From Candidatus Proelusimicrobium volucris (lineage in GTDB: Bacteria; Elusimicrobiota; Elusimicrobia; Elusimicrobiales; Elusimicrobiaceae): DNA of 64,000 nt. The notes under the pieces were generated by a model. The model had not been told where the DNA came from. It searched no databases and was given only the letters and a program-made list of their open reading frames with translations. Location: contig CALUXD010000001.1 in assembly GCA_944324665.1 (NCBI GenBank), positions 620,001 through 684,000 on the forward strand. The letters run 5' to 3'. The translations under genes were made by a program, and so were the position numbers. Shown here one piece after another: positions 53,302 through 58,706 of this stretch (its first letter is position 1; each line of letters starts with the position of its first letter).

Positions 53302-54309
53302 GTGAAAGACACTTATATTCTTGGCATAGAAAGTACCTGCGACGAAACTTCTTCGGCTCTTCTTAAAAATGGGCGGGAAGTTGTAAGCAATGTCATATAC
53401 ACGCAGATAGATATTCATAAGAAGTATGCTGGCGTAGTGCCGGAACTTGCAAGCCGCGCGCATGCCGCTAAAATAGCAAGCGTAATCAAGGCGGCATTGG
53501 GCGATATCGTGCCCGATTACATAGCTTTTGCCAACGGGCCCGGTTTGCCGGGGGGGCTTTTGGTTGGGCGCGTCGCGGCGGAAACTTTGGGTAATCTTTT
53601 TGAAAAGCCTGTAATAGGCGTAAATCATCTGGAGGGACATCTTTTGGCGTGCGAGTTTACGGGCGGGCCGGAGTTGGCTCCTCTTGAATTTCCGCTGATT
53701 TCCCTTATAGTATCAGGAGGGCACAGCGAATTGTGGCTTGTCAAGAATTACGGTGAATATAAAATTCTGGGCAAGACTAGGGACGATGCCGCGGGCGAGG
53801 CTTTCGACAAAGTCGCAAAGTTGCTGGGGCTGGGATATCCCGGCGGGCCGGAAGTGTCAAAGCAAGCCTTAAAGGGCGATAGAAACGCCGTAAAGTTTCC
53901 GCGCCCGATGATAGGCGGCGGATGCGAGTTTTCCTTCAGCGGAATAAAGACGGCGGTAAGCTATTATTTGCGCGATCATAAAGATATAAGCGTGCCCGAT
54001 ATTTGTGCCTCTTTTGAGCAGGCGGTGGCGGAAACATTGGTCAAGAAAGCGATAGATGCCGCCAAGCGTTATAAAGTAAAGAATATAGCGGTAGGCGGCG
54101 GCGTGGCGGCCAATGGCCTGCTTAGAGAGATTTTGACTAAAGAGGCGGAAAAACAAGGGATAAAGGCGCGCTTTGTGATGAAAGGCCTTTCTTCCGACAA
54201 TGCCGCGATGATAGCTTTATGCGCGGCCAAGAAACTTGAGTACGGCAAAGATACGGGAAATATAAAAATAAACCCCAATATGGTTGTGAGGAGTTGGCCT
54301 AAGAAATGA
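53302..54309 (+). CDS. tsaD: tRNA N6-adenosine threonylcarbamoyltransferase TsaD
   Basis: Transfers threonylcarbamoyl to A37 of ANN-reading tRNAs. The 335-residue ASKHA-fold protein has 'LGIESTCDETSSALL', the metal-binding H109 and H113 ('GVNHLEGHLLA'), 'SGGHSELWLV' and 'VGGGVAANGLLREIL'. The start codon is GTG at 53302. It overlaps the next gene by 4 nt. TsaB, TsaC and TsaE are not in this window. Confidence 0.95.
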   Translation: MKDTYILGIESTCDETSSALLKNGREVVSNVIYTQIDIHKKYAGVVPELASRAHAAKIASVIKAALGDIVPDYIAFANGPGLPGGLLVGRVAAETLGNLFEKPVIGVNHLEGHLLACEFTGGPELAPLEFPLISLIVSGGHSELWLVKNYGEYKILGKTRDDAAGEAFDKVAKLLGLGYPGGPEVSKQALKGDRNAVKFPRPMIGGGCEFSFSGIKTAVSYYLRDHKDISVPDICASFEQAVAETLVKKAIDAAKRYKVKNIAVGGGVAANGLLREILTKEAEKQGIKARFVMKGLSSDNAAMIALCAAKKLEYGKDTGNIKINPNMVVRSWPKK

Positions 54310-55514
54310 TCTTTTGGATGATGCCCGACAACAGTACGCTTACCCAGCGTATGATAGAGAAGTTTTTAACCGATTTTAAAAAACATAATCCGGGCCTTAG
54401 CATAAACATCAGGGTAATAAACAGGCGTACTTTGTGGACGAAGATGTTCACTTTGAAGCACGAGATCGGCCGCGCCGGCTGCCCTGATATTATCGCTTTT
54501 CCGCATTATTGGACAAATCTTCTTATCAAAGCCAATATACTGCAAAACCTTACCGAATTGGACAAACTGCTCAGAGTGGACAATTGTTTGGATCCGCTAA
54601 AACCGTTTTGCTATAAAAAAGATACGGGTGACATTTATTCCTATCCGTGGTGGATGGACATAACGGCGCTTCATTACAGGGAAGACCATTTAAAACTGAT
54701 AACTTCAAAACCTGAGGAACTTCTTAATACGTGGCCGGGCTTTCTGGAGGCTTGCGCGCGGCTTAAAGAATATTTCAGCGGACAGGAAGACTATTATCCC
54801 GTGCAGAATAACGATTGGCGCGGATCCCTTTCTTACCGTTCGGCCTTGCCTTGTGTATGGGGGCGCGGCGCCGATATTTATAATGAGGACGGCTCAGTGT
54901 CGGGCTTGGGCACGGCGCAATTTTTGGCGGGTATTGAAGATTTTATAGAGTTGGCGGTAAAAGGATATATGCCTATACTTAGGGAACGCAGTTCCAACGG
55001 GGCTATATCGTGCGGCAAATCCAGCATGATGCTTACCAGGCGCCAAGGCATCACGATGTTTGAAGGTAAGGAAACGGATTTTAAAGTGCGGACTTTGCCG
55101 ATACCAAAAACGGGCGCGGAGCATATAAATTATATGAGCGGCGTAAATTTGGGCATAGTCAGGGGCAGCGCCAATATCCAGCCGGCTTTGGATCTGATAA
55201 AATGGCTGACCAGGCCGGAAAAACAGATAGAGTATGCCTCCATGACGGAGGTATTCCCCGCGCTTGAGGGCAGTTTTGAGAGTTTTCTTCTGGCTTCGCC
55301 TCAGCGCATACGCAATTACGCCCACATAATAGCGGGCGCGAGAACTATGCGAAACCATATAGCTTCCGGCACGGTAATGGAAGTTTTGGGCAATATAATG
55401 TCCAAGGCGGCCAGCGCGATAGTGATGAATCAGTATTCGCCGGAAATATTGAAAAGCGAATTAAAAAAAGGCGATGAGGAAGTGAACAATATCCTTCATC
55501 TTTATAACGAGTAG
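54306..55514 (+). CDS. Cytoplasmic solute-binding-protein-like protein (family 1 fold)
   Basis: 402 residues that match family 1 extracellular solute-binding proteins from the first residue: 'IFWMMPDNSTLTQRMIEKFL', 'GCPDIIAFPHYWTNLL', 'YSYPWWMDITALHYREDHL', 'LALDLIKWLT'-type late motif ('ALDLIKWLTRPEKQ'). There is no signal peptide or lipobox, and the ATG overlaps the tsaD stop (ATGA), so no longer start is available. It is therefore predicted to stay in the cytoplasm. No ABC permease or ATPase is adjacent. The next gene, 4 nt away, encodes a GAF-GGDEF protein. Intracellular ligand sensing is an inference. Confidence 0.8.
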   Translation: MIFWMMPDNSTLTQRMIEKFLTDFKKHNPGLSINIRVINRRTLWTKMFTLKHEIGRAGCPDIIAFPHYWTNLLIKANILQNLTELDKLLRVDNCLDPLKPFCYKKDTGDIYSYPWWMDITALHYREDHLKLITSKPEELLNTWPGFLEACARLKEYFSGQEDYYPVQNNDWRGSLSYRSALPCVWGRGADIYNEDGSVSGLGTAQFLAGIEDFIELAVKGYMPILRERSSNGAISCGKSSMMLTRRQGITMFEGKETDFKVRTLPIPKTGAEHINYMSGVNLGIVRGSANIQPALDLIKWLTRPEKQIEYASMTEVFPALEGSFESFLLASPQRIRNYAHIIAGARTMRNHIASGTVMEVLGNIMSKAASAIVMNQYSPEILKSELKKGDEEVNNILHLYNE

Positions 55515-55518
55515 AGCC

Positions 55519-57021
55519 ATGCAGAACAAAAGGAGTTTGCTTTTATACAATTTTTATCAGGGCCTGTCCGACAGATTTACCAATATAGACAGGCTTTTGC
55601 GCCACGCTTTGCCCGTTTTGGCGGATTATTTGTCCGCCGATAGGGTATTGTTCTTCGATTGGAAGGAAGAAAAATCTATCATTTCCTTAAGGACGATGTG
55701 CCAAAAAGGAAAATGCTATGACTTGCAGGAAGATATCTTTGTGGACAGATATTCGCCCGAAGTGATAAAACTTCTGCAAGACGGTTATATGATGTCGCCC
55801 AGTTTGGATTATCCTGCGGTATACGTCTTGGTTCAATGGCGCAGCCCGCAGGGCAGTTTTGAGGCTTTGGCCAGCGGCCAAAGAGCAAGAAGCGCGTATG
55901 GCGTAATAAGGGTTGAGCGGTTTAAGGAAAACAAGCCTTTTACTCAAAACGAGATAGAATCTCTAATCGCTTTATGCCGGGAACTCTCATCAAAGATAAA
56001 TATGACGGAGATTGACCATTATAATACGTCCCAGCTGCAAAGGGCGCAGGCCTTAAACGATTTGGCAAAAGTATTCGCGACGTCCATTCGCTTAAGCGAC
56101 AGTTTAATAGAAATTTTAAAAAGTATCCAAAAGAGCTTCTATTTCGACAGGACTTCCTTATATTTGGTCGACCCCAAAACGAATCAACTTCAGGAAGCTT
56201 ACAGCGCGGATTTATCGGGCGAGGTTAAACAAATAGACATAAGCGAGGCTTTATCCAAGAACTTTACTTCAGGCAGCGACGGTACGACAAATATCTGCCC
56301 CGCGGTAAGAAGTTCCGATATAGTTTTGACTCTGCCCCTGACTTTGCAGGGCAAGAATTTGGGGTGGATGGTGTTTGATAATATGCTCTCGCGCATGCCG
56401 ATAGCGACGGAAGATATTTTAAGTTTAAAGCAATTTTCCGCTCAGATAGCTTTGGCGATAGACAATGCCCGCCTTTTTGAGAAAGTGCAGGAGCTTTCCA
56501 ATTACGACGAACTTACAAAATTGGCTTTGAGGCGCTTTTTCAACGAGAACTTGGCGCAGGAGATATACCGCTCCAAACGTTTTAATCTTACGCTTTCGCT
56601 TATAATAATGGACATAGATTATTTTAAAACGATAAACGACACTTACGGCCATTTGTTGGGCGATGAGGCTTTAAAGGCGGTAAGCAGCGTAATATCTAGC
56701 AGTTTGAGGCAGACGGATTTGCCGTGCCGATACGGCGGCGACGAGATAGTTATAATGCTGCCCAGAACTACGGGCGAAGAAGCCAAGAATATAGCCAAGC
56801 GTCTTTCGGAAAAAGTTTCCGCCATAGAGCTTAACCCGAAATATACCGGGGGCGCGGATATAAAACTCTCGATAAGCCAAGGAATATCGGTGTTTCCCTA
56901 CGACACGGACGATCAAAACGATTTAATTAAACGGGCAGACGAGGCCTTATACTATGTAAAACAGCACGGGCGCGGATTTTGGGCTTTGTACGGCGATATT
57001 AAAGAAGGAAAGATGAAATGA
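55519..57021 (+). CDS. Tandem-GAF diguanylate cyclase
   Basis: 500 residues: a GAF-like region (about 20-160), a second GAF domain (about 175-325), a short coiled link, and a GGDEF domain (328-500). The active-site loop reads GGDEI (406-410), with Ile instead of Phe at the last place. The Mg-binding 'MDIDYFKTINDTYGH' is intact, as is the inhibitory I-site RQTD (397-400). Cyclase activity and product feedback are thus likely. No membrane helix is present, so sensing is intracellular, possibly through the solute-binding-like protein encoded just upstream. Confidence 0.9.
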   Translation: MQNKRSLLLYNFYQGLSDRFTNIDRLLRHALPVLADYLSADRVLFFDWKEEKSIISLRTMCQKGKCYDLQEDIFVDRYSPEVIKLLQDGYMMSPSLDYPAVYVLVQWRSPQGSFEALASGQRARSAYGVIRVERFKENKPFTQNEIESLIALCRELSSKINMTEIDHYNTSQLQRAQALNDLAKVFATSIRLSDSLIEILKSIQKSFYFDRTSLYLVDPKTNQLQEAYSADLSGEVKQIDISEALSKNFTSGSDGTTNICPAVRSSDIVLTLPLTLQGKNLGWMVFDNMLSRMPIATEDILSLKQFSAQIALAIDNARLFEKVQELSNYDELTKLALRRFFNENLAQEIYRSKRFNLTLSLIIMDIDYFKTINDTYGHLLGDEALKAVSSVISSSLRQTDLPCRYGGDEIVIMLPRTTGEEAKNIAKRLSEKVSAIELNPKYTGGADIKLSISQGISVFPYDTDDQNDLIKRADEALYYVKQHGRGFWALYGDIKEGKMK

Positions 57022-57386: not shown

Positions 57387-58553
57387 CTATTTTCGTACCG
57401 GGTGCGGTTTATACGAAGAGGGCAGTTTATCCGTCGCCACAAAAGTCTTTTCCACCTTTTCTCTTCTTATAAAAGGGGTTATGGTAAAGAAAGTTTCCTT
57501 TTTGTCGAAAAAGGCCAGCCAATTCTCGTATGAAATGGGTTCTTCGCTAAGAAGAGTATCCACAACGGTAAAGCTGAGGGCGTTTTCCTCTTCAAAGACC
57601 AATAATGTCGCCGCATGATAATCCCAAGCGGGGTATTTTTTGCCTTGCGGGGAAAAGAAATCCGTCTGTCCTTTCGCGTTTTTCAGCAATCCGTTTGAAG
57701 GCTTGGCATAAATTTCGTAAACTCTCAGCAATTTATACAGGGAATATCTGTTTTGCGTTGCGTTGCAAATATGTTTGCAGAATGAATACGAGCAAGCGGC
57801 ACACTCTTGGCTGAGCGGTCTATAAGTGTAACTCTTTGCGGATGAGTACGAATCCCCGACCCTGGTGGCGTTATCGAGCATTTTTACCGGGTCGGTATGC
57901 TCGTATATTACTGACAAATCTTTGTTGTTTTTGTTATTGTCTGATATATATTTTTTTAACAGAAACTTTTTTGCCGAGGTCAGTTCCTGCCTGCTCAGCG
58001 CCGCTTGCCCGTAATTATAGGAGAAGGCTTTATTTCTGTTATAGGTATTGACGAGCATATTTATGTAATCGGCCTGCTGTTTTAATATTTTTGCGTCTTT
58101 GGAATTGTAGTTTAAAAATCTTTTTTGAAAGAAGAAAACAGCTATTTTAGCGTTAATGTCAGCCAGATTTTTGTAATAGAAATTTTTTATTTCCGCGCCG
58201 TTTTTGAAATCCGAACGGTATATGGGATCAAGCGCACCGGTATAGGATGTGTCAATCATAGGCTGAGGCAGACTTATGCCTTTGGCGGCGTCTATAATGT
58301 ACATATTATATATGTATTGCGCTACGGCTTTTTGTTTTTCTTCTTTATCTGTGAAAGAGAAGCTGGAAATTAAACCATCCCAAAAGGAGGGTTCCTTTTT
58401 TAATTGCGAAGAAGGCATAAAACCTTGCGTAAAAAGCAGATACTTGTCGCCCGAAGGCGCAAGCGCGTCGGCCAAACTTTCCTTAAAATCGGCGGCATTC
58501 AAGGCCAAAGAAAAAAATAAGAGCAATAAAGACAAAAAAGATATTCTTTTCAT
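57387..58553 (-). CDS. Secreted protein with protein-glutaminase-like C-terminal domain (putative)
   Basis: 388 residues with a signal peptide (MKRISFLSLLLLFFSLALNA). The first 240 residues are not recognised. The C-terminal part holds a cysteine cluster (C251, C254, C259, C263), then H313 in 'PAWDYHAATLLVF', D332 in 'FTVVDTLLSEEPISYENW' and W345. The order Cys, WxYHxA, VxD-x-L-x(4)P-x(4)W and the 19-residue His-Asp spacing recall bacterial protein-glutaminase (Cys-His-Asp triad). This is pattern recognition and not a search result. I start it at 58553, because GGGAG lies 8 nt upstream. An ATG at 58559 lies too close to it. Confidence 0.7.
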   Translation of the reverse strand: MKRISFLSLLLLFFSLALNAADFKESLADALAPSGDKYLLFTQGFMPSSQLKKEPSFWDGLISSFSFTDKEEKQKAVAQYIYNMYIIDAAKGISLPQPMIDTSYTGALDPIYRSDFKNGAEIKNFYYKNLADINAKIAVFFFQKRFLNYNSKDAKILKQQADYINMLVNTYNRNKAFSYNYGQAALSRQELTSAKKFLLKKYISDNNKNNKDLSVIYEHTDPVKMLDNATRVGDSYSSAKSYTYRPLSQECAACSYSFCKHICNATQNRYSLYKLLRVYEIYAKPSNGLLKNAKGQTDFFSPQGKKYPAWDYHAATLLVFEEENALSFTVVDTLLSEEPISYENWLAFFDKKETFFTITPFIRREKVEKTFVATDKLPSSYKPHPVRK

Positions 58554-58649
58554 AAACATACTCCCTTAACTTAAATTATAATCAATCCTTTTTTATGGCA
58601 CAAGGGTATAAAGGCCTATAATTATATAGGAAATTGGGGCAGTATTTTA

Positions 58650-58690
58650 TTAAAACAAAATCCGGCTATGACTTTTTAGACATAGCCGGA
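58650..58690 (-). terminator. Terminator after the OsmC-family gene
   Basis: A 10-bp stem TCCGGCTATG (58661-58670) with CATAGCCGGA (58681-58690) is followed on the minus strand by TTTTGTTTTAA. Confidence 0.85.
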
Positions 58691-58706
58691 TAAGGCGAAT
58701 AAAAAG

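Follow-up and report, generated by a model that had tools for sequence, protein, structure and literature searches.

Within the 64,000-nucleotide stretch of Candidatus Proelusimicrobium volucris DNA analysed here (the window), which belongs to a genome of 1.5 Mb, one open reading frame encodes a protein whose C-terminal part recalls bacterial protein-glutaminase. The question is whether this protein could be a secreted enzyme that deamidates glutamine in proteins and, if so, which of its four clustered cysteines would be the nucleophile. An earlier note, made by reading the sequence, had suggested such an enzyme with either C259 or C263 as catalytic residue. In protein-glutaminases, a Cys thiolate attacks the side-chain amide of glutamine, ammonia leaves and the acyl-enzyme is hydrolysed. 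The literature cited here describes such enzymes from two genera of Bacteroidota, Chryseobacterium and Bacteroides, and they serve to improve food proteins; a literature search found no mention of protein-glutaminase together with Elusimicrobia. The comparisons below support the view that the window protein is a divergent new member of the known protein-glutaminase family, with C251 instead of C259 or C263 as predicted nucleophile.

The Gene and Its Reading Frame

The coding part of the gene runs from 58553 to 57390 on the minus strand, with the stop codon reaching 57387 (Table 1). An alternative ATG is present two codons further upstream at 58559, but the ATG at 58553 is preferred because a Shine-Dalgarno-like AAGGGAG fits this start. 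The plus strand of 57387-58553 is full of stops and not coding. The open reading frame is not a chance one, since the protein matches PF18626 above the curated cut-off, relatives with 56-84% identity have the same frame, and dN/dS between the window protein and its two nearest relatives is about 0.11. Among the named entries of the genome collection, the nearest relative comes from an uncultured Elusimicrobiales bacterium (L002, 84% identity). Compared with L002 and L005, dN/dS was 0.05-0.16 for the N-terminal half and 0.07-0.12 for the catalytic half. The N-terminal 240 residues are genuine and under purifying selection, with a constraint similar to that of the catalytic half.

The sequence features on which the first suggestion was built could be recovered. 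C251, C254, C259, C263, H313 and D332 are exactly at the positions given for them, and the motifs PAWDYHAA and FTVVDTLLSEEPISYENW are present, with a His-Asp spacing of 19 residues.

Table 1. Features of the protein-glutaminase-like locus, with positions in the window.
Feature	Position	Strand	Basis or remark
Protein-glutaminase-like gene	57387..58553	(-)	388 aa + stop codon; Pfam match, relatives, dN/dS ~0.11
Predicted Sec signal peptide, residues 1-21 (MKRISFLSLLLLFFSLALNAA)	58491..58553	(-)	cleavage after A20 or A21; read from sequence
Presumed pro-region, ~residues 22-212	57918..58490	(-)	conserved motifs, no Pfam match; boundary inferred
Presumed mature enzyme, ~residues 213-388 (176 aa)	57390..57917	(-)	boundary inferred
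PF18626 Gln_deamidase_2 match, residues 264-347	57513..57764	(-)	E 1.8e-6, 28.5 bits, cut-off 25
C251, predicted nucleophile	57801..57803	(-)	aligned with Cys156; invariant 29/29
C254, C259, C263, accessory cysteines, non-conserved, predicted non-catalytic	57765..57794	(-)	lost singly or together in relatives
H313, predicted general base	57615..57617	(-)	aligned with His197; invariant 30/30
D332, predicted third triad residue	57558..57560	(-)	aligned with Asp217; invariant 30/30
W345, invariant trailing Trp	57519..57521	(-)	counterpart of the Trp in 'TDTAWR' of protein-glutaminase by alignment
Candidate own promoter and Shine-Dalgarno	58561..58603	(-)	read by eye
Terminator-like hairpin and T-run between OsmC-like gene and window gene	58660..58691	(-)	read by eye; absent from the scanner's list

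Family Assignment

PF18626, the family of protein-glutaminase (3A54) within the papain-like superfamily (PMC10318531), is the sole Pfam family matched by the window protein. It was also matched by all 27 family members scanned, with E 0.1 or better, and no other Pfam family recurred among them. An NCBIfam search with the window protein gave no match, and neither did a search of the PDB with this protein alone as query, for which a profile was needed. A family profile (HMM) was therefore built from 27 relatives; searched against the PDB, it matched 3A56 (E 2.5e-5), 3A54 (E 3.1e-5), 8Z3I (E 8e-4) and both 2KSV and 2ZK9 (E 1.4e-3), while the next matches were unrelated with E above 0.5. Together with the Pfam match, these hits uphold the protein-glutaminase-like reading. 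Profile-profile alignment of the family with 3A54 and 8Z3I gave E 1.2e-6 and a probability of 91%; the score became lower when proteins of genus g10 were added to this template, and hhalign of the family against a protein-glutaminase fragment without the H-D-W block gave a probability of only 2%. Identity to protein-glutaminase is low outside this block, which counts against the assignment. Among the family members themselves, identity to the window protein drops to 23% with the triad still invariant. AlphaFold2 models made from a two-sequence input had a mean pLDDT of 32.6 for the full-length protein (window protein and L002) and 34.3 for the C-terminal 150 residues, values too low to give a confident fold.

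Two other activities were considered. The first is that of a transglutaminase-type acyltransferase, which uses the same triad and thioester and passes the acyl group to an amine (cross-linking or polyamination), not to water. The triad is common to protein-glutaminase and transglutaminase, which are thought to be related according to the statement in PMC9396377 that cites Hashizume 2011, and possession of the triad does not by itself decide which acceptor is used. However, no transglutaminase family was matched by the window protein at E up to 10 or by the 27 members at E up to 0.1, and the only significant matches of the PDB profile search were protein-glutaminases, which makes an acyltransferase highly improbable. 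The second is a papain-like cysteine peptidase cutting backbone bonds, favoured by the superfamily to which PF18626 was assigned (PMC10318531) and by the expectation that the organism uses peptides. Neither the window protein nor the 27 members matched a peptidase family, however, and the closest solved relatives are deamidases, so that we consider peptidase activity highly improbable.

Catalytic Residues and Cysteine Cluster

The published triad of the C. proteolyticum protein-glutaminase is Cys156-His197-Asp217 (PMC4214742; same numbering in PMC13298967). In the alignment of the family profile with the PDB sequences, the segment YRP..ECAACSY was placed onto FRYPVDGCYARAH of protein-glutaminase, and the profile-profile alignment paired C251 with Cys156, with no gaps around the two, and H313 and D332 with their counterparts further on. 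The conservation of H313 and D332 had been named beforehand as a check, and both residues are found in every homologue covering them. The invariance counts refer to the homologues that cover each position (n=29 for C251, n=30 for H313 and D332). Further invariant positions are W310, Y312, A315, L335, W345 and F349. The H-D spacing is 19 in 26 of 27 family members and 20 in the C. proteolyticum enzyme, and the D-W spacing is 13-14 in both.

C251 is the predicted nucleophile because it is invariant, aligns with Cys156 and, signal peptides aside, has an equivalent that is the only Cys of L017 and of L020. The candidates C259 and C263 were rejected for this role, since C254, C259 and C263 are dropped in various combinations and C251 never is. 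The nucleophile motif itself reads ECAACSY in the window protein, where it departs from the GCYARAH of the known enzymes, and ECAARAY in some relatives, which is close to GCYARAH. Across branches of genus g6 the accessory cysteines were lost in differing combinations (L026, L027, L034, L010 and L028), and in some of these branches the ARA motif of classical protein-glutaminases replaces them.

The CX2CX4CX3C spacing could also be read as a metal or Fe-S centre in a protein that is not a hydrolase, and this four-cysteine spacing is shared by the window's clade with many relatives. Yet three of the four were lost repeatedly, whereas C251, H313 and D332 never were, and one non-signal-peptide Cys is all that L017 and L020 have. 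An Fe-S or zinc cluster was thus rejected as a family-wide function, and a non-hydrolase seems hardly credible.

Signal Peptide, Pro-Region and Mature Part

A K/R n-region followed by a hydrophobic core is present in 26 of 27 relatives, window protein included, as called by a simple hydropathy rule and not by SignalP. Known protein-glutaminases are secreted as prepro-proteins and have a pro-peptide that covers the active site (PMC13298967, PMC9396377, PMC13139226), with pro-regions of 108-118 residues and a mature part of 185 aa in the characterised enzymes (PMC9396377). The mature C. proteolyticum enzyme begins 41 residues before the catalytic Cys, which corresponds to about residue 210 in the window protein; from this distance a pro-region of ~190 residues and a mature enzyme of ~176 residues were deduced. 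In addition, DLSVIYEHTDPVKMLDN of the window protein resembles LASVIPDVATLNSLFNQ of the C. proteolyticum enzyme. The protein is most likely a Sec-exported zymogen with a signal peptide, a long pro-region and a C-terminal predicted deamidase.

A weak but collinear alignment links profile positions 156-264 to 3A54 residues 47-163, which include pro-region and mature start. In shuffle tests, the score of the pro-region against that of 3A54 was reached by 12 of 3000 shuffles, which is borderline, and the score against the 8Z3I pro-region by 754 of 3000. The stretch preceding the part alignable to 3A54 contains the conserved motifs AxY(L/I)(Y/F)NMY, LG(V/A)LD and FY, and no match to it was found. 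In a more elaborate scheme, residues ~22-150, which resemble no curated family, would be a new module for anchoring or for zymogen control, and in the four-cysteine branch C254, C259 and C263 would form a redox switch that locks or frees C251 and so turns the enzyme on in a reducing gut; this appears unlikely.

Comparison with Known Protein-Glutaminases

The window protein and the C. proteolyticum enzyme (EC 3.5.1.44; 3A54, 3A56, 2ZK9, 2KSV; PF18626) have the same, aligned order of Cys, His and Asp, the motifs W-x-YH-x-A and D-x-x-L...P-V/I-x(4)-W, a signal peptide with a pro-region, and a similar predicted mature size (176 versus 185 aa). On the other hand, overall identity is very low, the C-H spacing is 62 instead of 41, the ECAACSY motif stands in place of GCYARAH, and the presumed pro-region has ~190 instead of 114 residues. 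The conserved N-terminal part of this pro-region shows no similarity to known pro-regions, and the other cysteines of the C. proteolyticum enzyme have no counterparts in the window protein.

The protein glutaminase domain-containing protein 8Z3I aligns with the family profile over the triad and the H-D-W block, but it differs in an H-D spacing of 15, in keeping GCYARAH and in a pro-region without detectable similarity to that of the window protein. The Bacteroides helcogenes protein-glutaminase, compared by description, is 45-47% like the Chryseobacterium enzymes, from which the window protein is much more distant, and has a pro-region of 108 residues (PMC9396377). It is a secreted pro-enzyme with a partly active pro-form, and removal of the pro-peptide increases activity 17-fold (PMC13139226). 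It offers a guide to how the window protein can be expected to behave.

Within the order, L018 and L021 (genus g10, from another family) resemble the window protein in a signal-like start, the C/H/D/W order and a PF18626 match above the cut-off. They differ in that the NMY/LGVLD N-terminal domain is missing and residue 97 is already the catalytic Cys; the C-terminus is extended by more than 100 residues that include Cys, and the spacings are 72 (C-H) and 15 (H-D). These two represent a second, shorter PF18626 architecture within Elusimicrobiota.

Proposed Function

Taking the sequence evidence together, we propose that the gene quite probably encodes a divergent PF18626 protein-glutaminase that is made as an exported prepro-enzyme and deamidates glutamines in proteins. 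The signal peptide would direct export from the cytoplasm via Sec, and the pro-region may hold the enzyme inactive and so shield the cell's own proteins. The pro-forms in which known enzymes leave the cell have little or no activity until extracellular proteases activate them (PMC13139226, PMC13298967). For the window protein, proteolysis near residues 205-213 would remove the pro-region; neither a cleavage site nor a protease for this step was found. C251, activated by H313 that is oriented by D332, would then attack the amide group of a glutamine side chain in a protein, after which ammonia would be released and hydrolysis of the thioester would leave glutamate. Judging from its taxonomy the organism probably lives in the gut, where the enzyme could have a nutritional role by bringing protein of the diet or host into solution and liberating ammonia.

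The family is known, and the Elusimicrobiaceae branch with its much longer front part is new. This divergent set provides new sequences for the enzyme class and narrows the residues that are essential, and it suggests protein modification outside the cell by these small-genome bacteria.

Distribution and Descent

Of 295 genomes of the phylum, 33 contain PF18626 (3 of 90 genera); for the window's family the count is 37 of 90 genomes (2 of 6 genera). The two phylum matches from another family of the order are L018 and L021. The gene tree splits the two genera with weak support (68/48). This split is consistent with mostly vertical descent with many losses, and patchy gain may be considered as an alternative. 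No relatives were found in viral contigs or plasmids. One genome (G016) carries two very different copies, L007 and L014. In the copy of another (G015, L013), the gap between catalytic Cys and His is 27 residues longer (spacing 89 versus 62). L013 and L014 each form a long branch.

Neighbourhood and Transcription

In the window's clade the gene is constantly located between CrcB-like and OsmC-like genes, whereas in genus g6 it is often beside an H+-pyrophosphatase and ferritin. Because the neighbours vary between these groups, the idea of an operon partner was dropped; across the window and the examined relatives there is no constant functional neighbour. An empty-site comparison around the OsmC-like neighbour across the genus met relatives too diverged to use.

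The neighbourhood also bears on whether the protein might be a deamidase effector or toxin that acts on a specific host or rival-cell protein, not a broad digestive enzyme. Elsewhere, PF18626 genes have genes for Dot/Icm type IVB secretion in their vicinity, and deamidases related to them act as effectors (PMC10318531). Here, however, no secretion, immunity or toxin genes were adjacent in the window or the examined relatives, identifiable neighbours were housekeeping genes, the remaining ones matched nothing, and PADLOC gave no match. The Sec-type signal peptide in nearly all relatives likewise argues against this role, which we regard as very unlikely, and we favour the exported protein-glutaminase.

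Upstream, a terminator-like hairpin and a promoter-like site suggest that the gene is transcribed separately, probably as a unit of its own. The candidate promoter consists of TATAAT at 58580-58575 with a weak -35 17 nt upstream, and the Shine-Dalgarno AAGGGAG is at 58567-58561; the promoter scanner did not list this site, as the -35 is too weak.

Elsewhere in the window, 54306-55514 on the plus strand encodes a solute-binding-protein homologue (SBP_bac_8, E 4e-16) with no evident signal peptide at its start. Directly after it, 55519-57021 (plus strand) encodes what looks like a GGDEF-type diguanylate cyclase, for which the homologue might be a cytoplasmic ligand sensor. The pair is kept in three other genomes (G007, G011 and G017).
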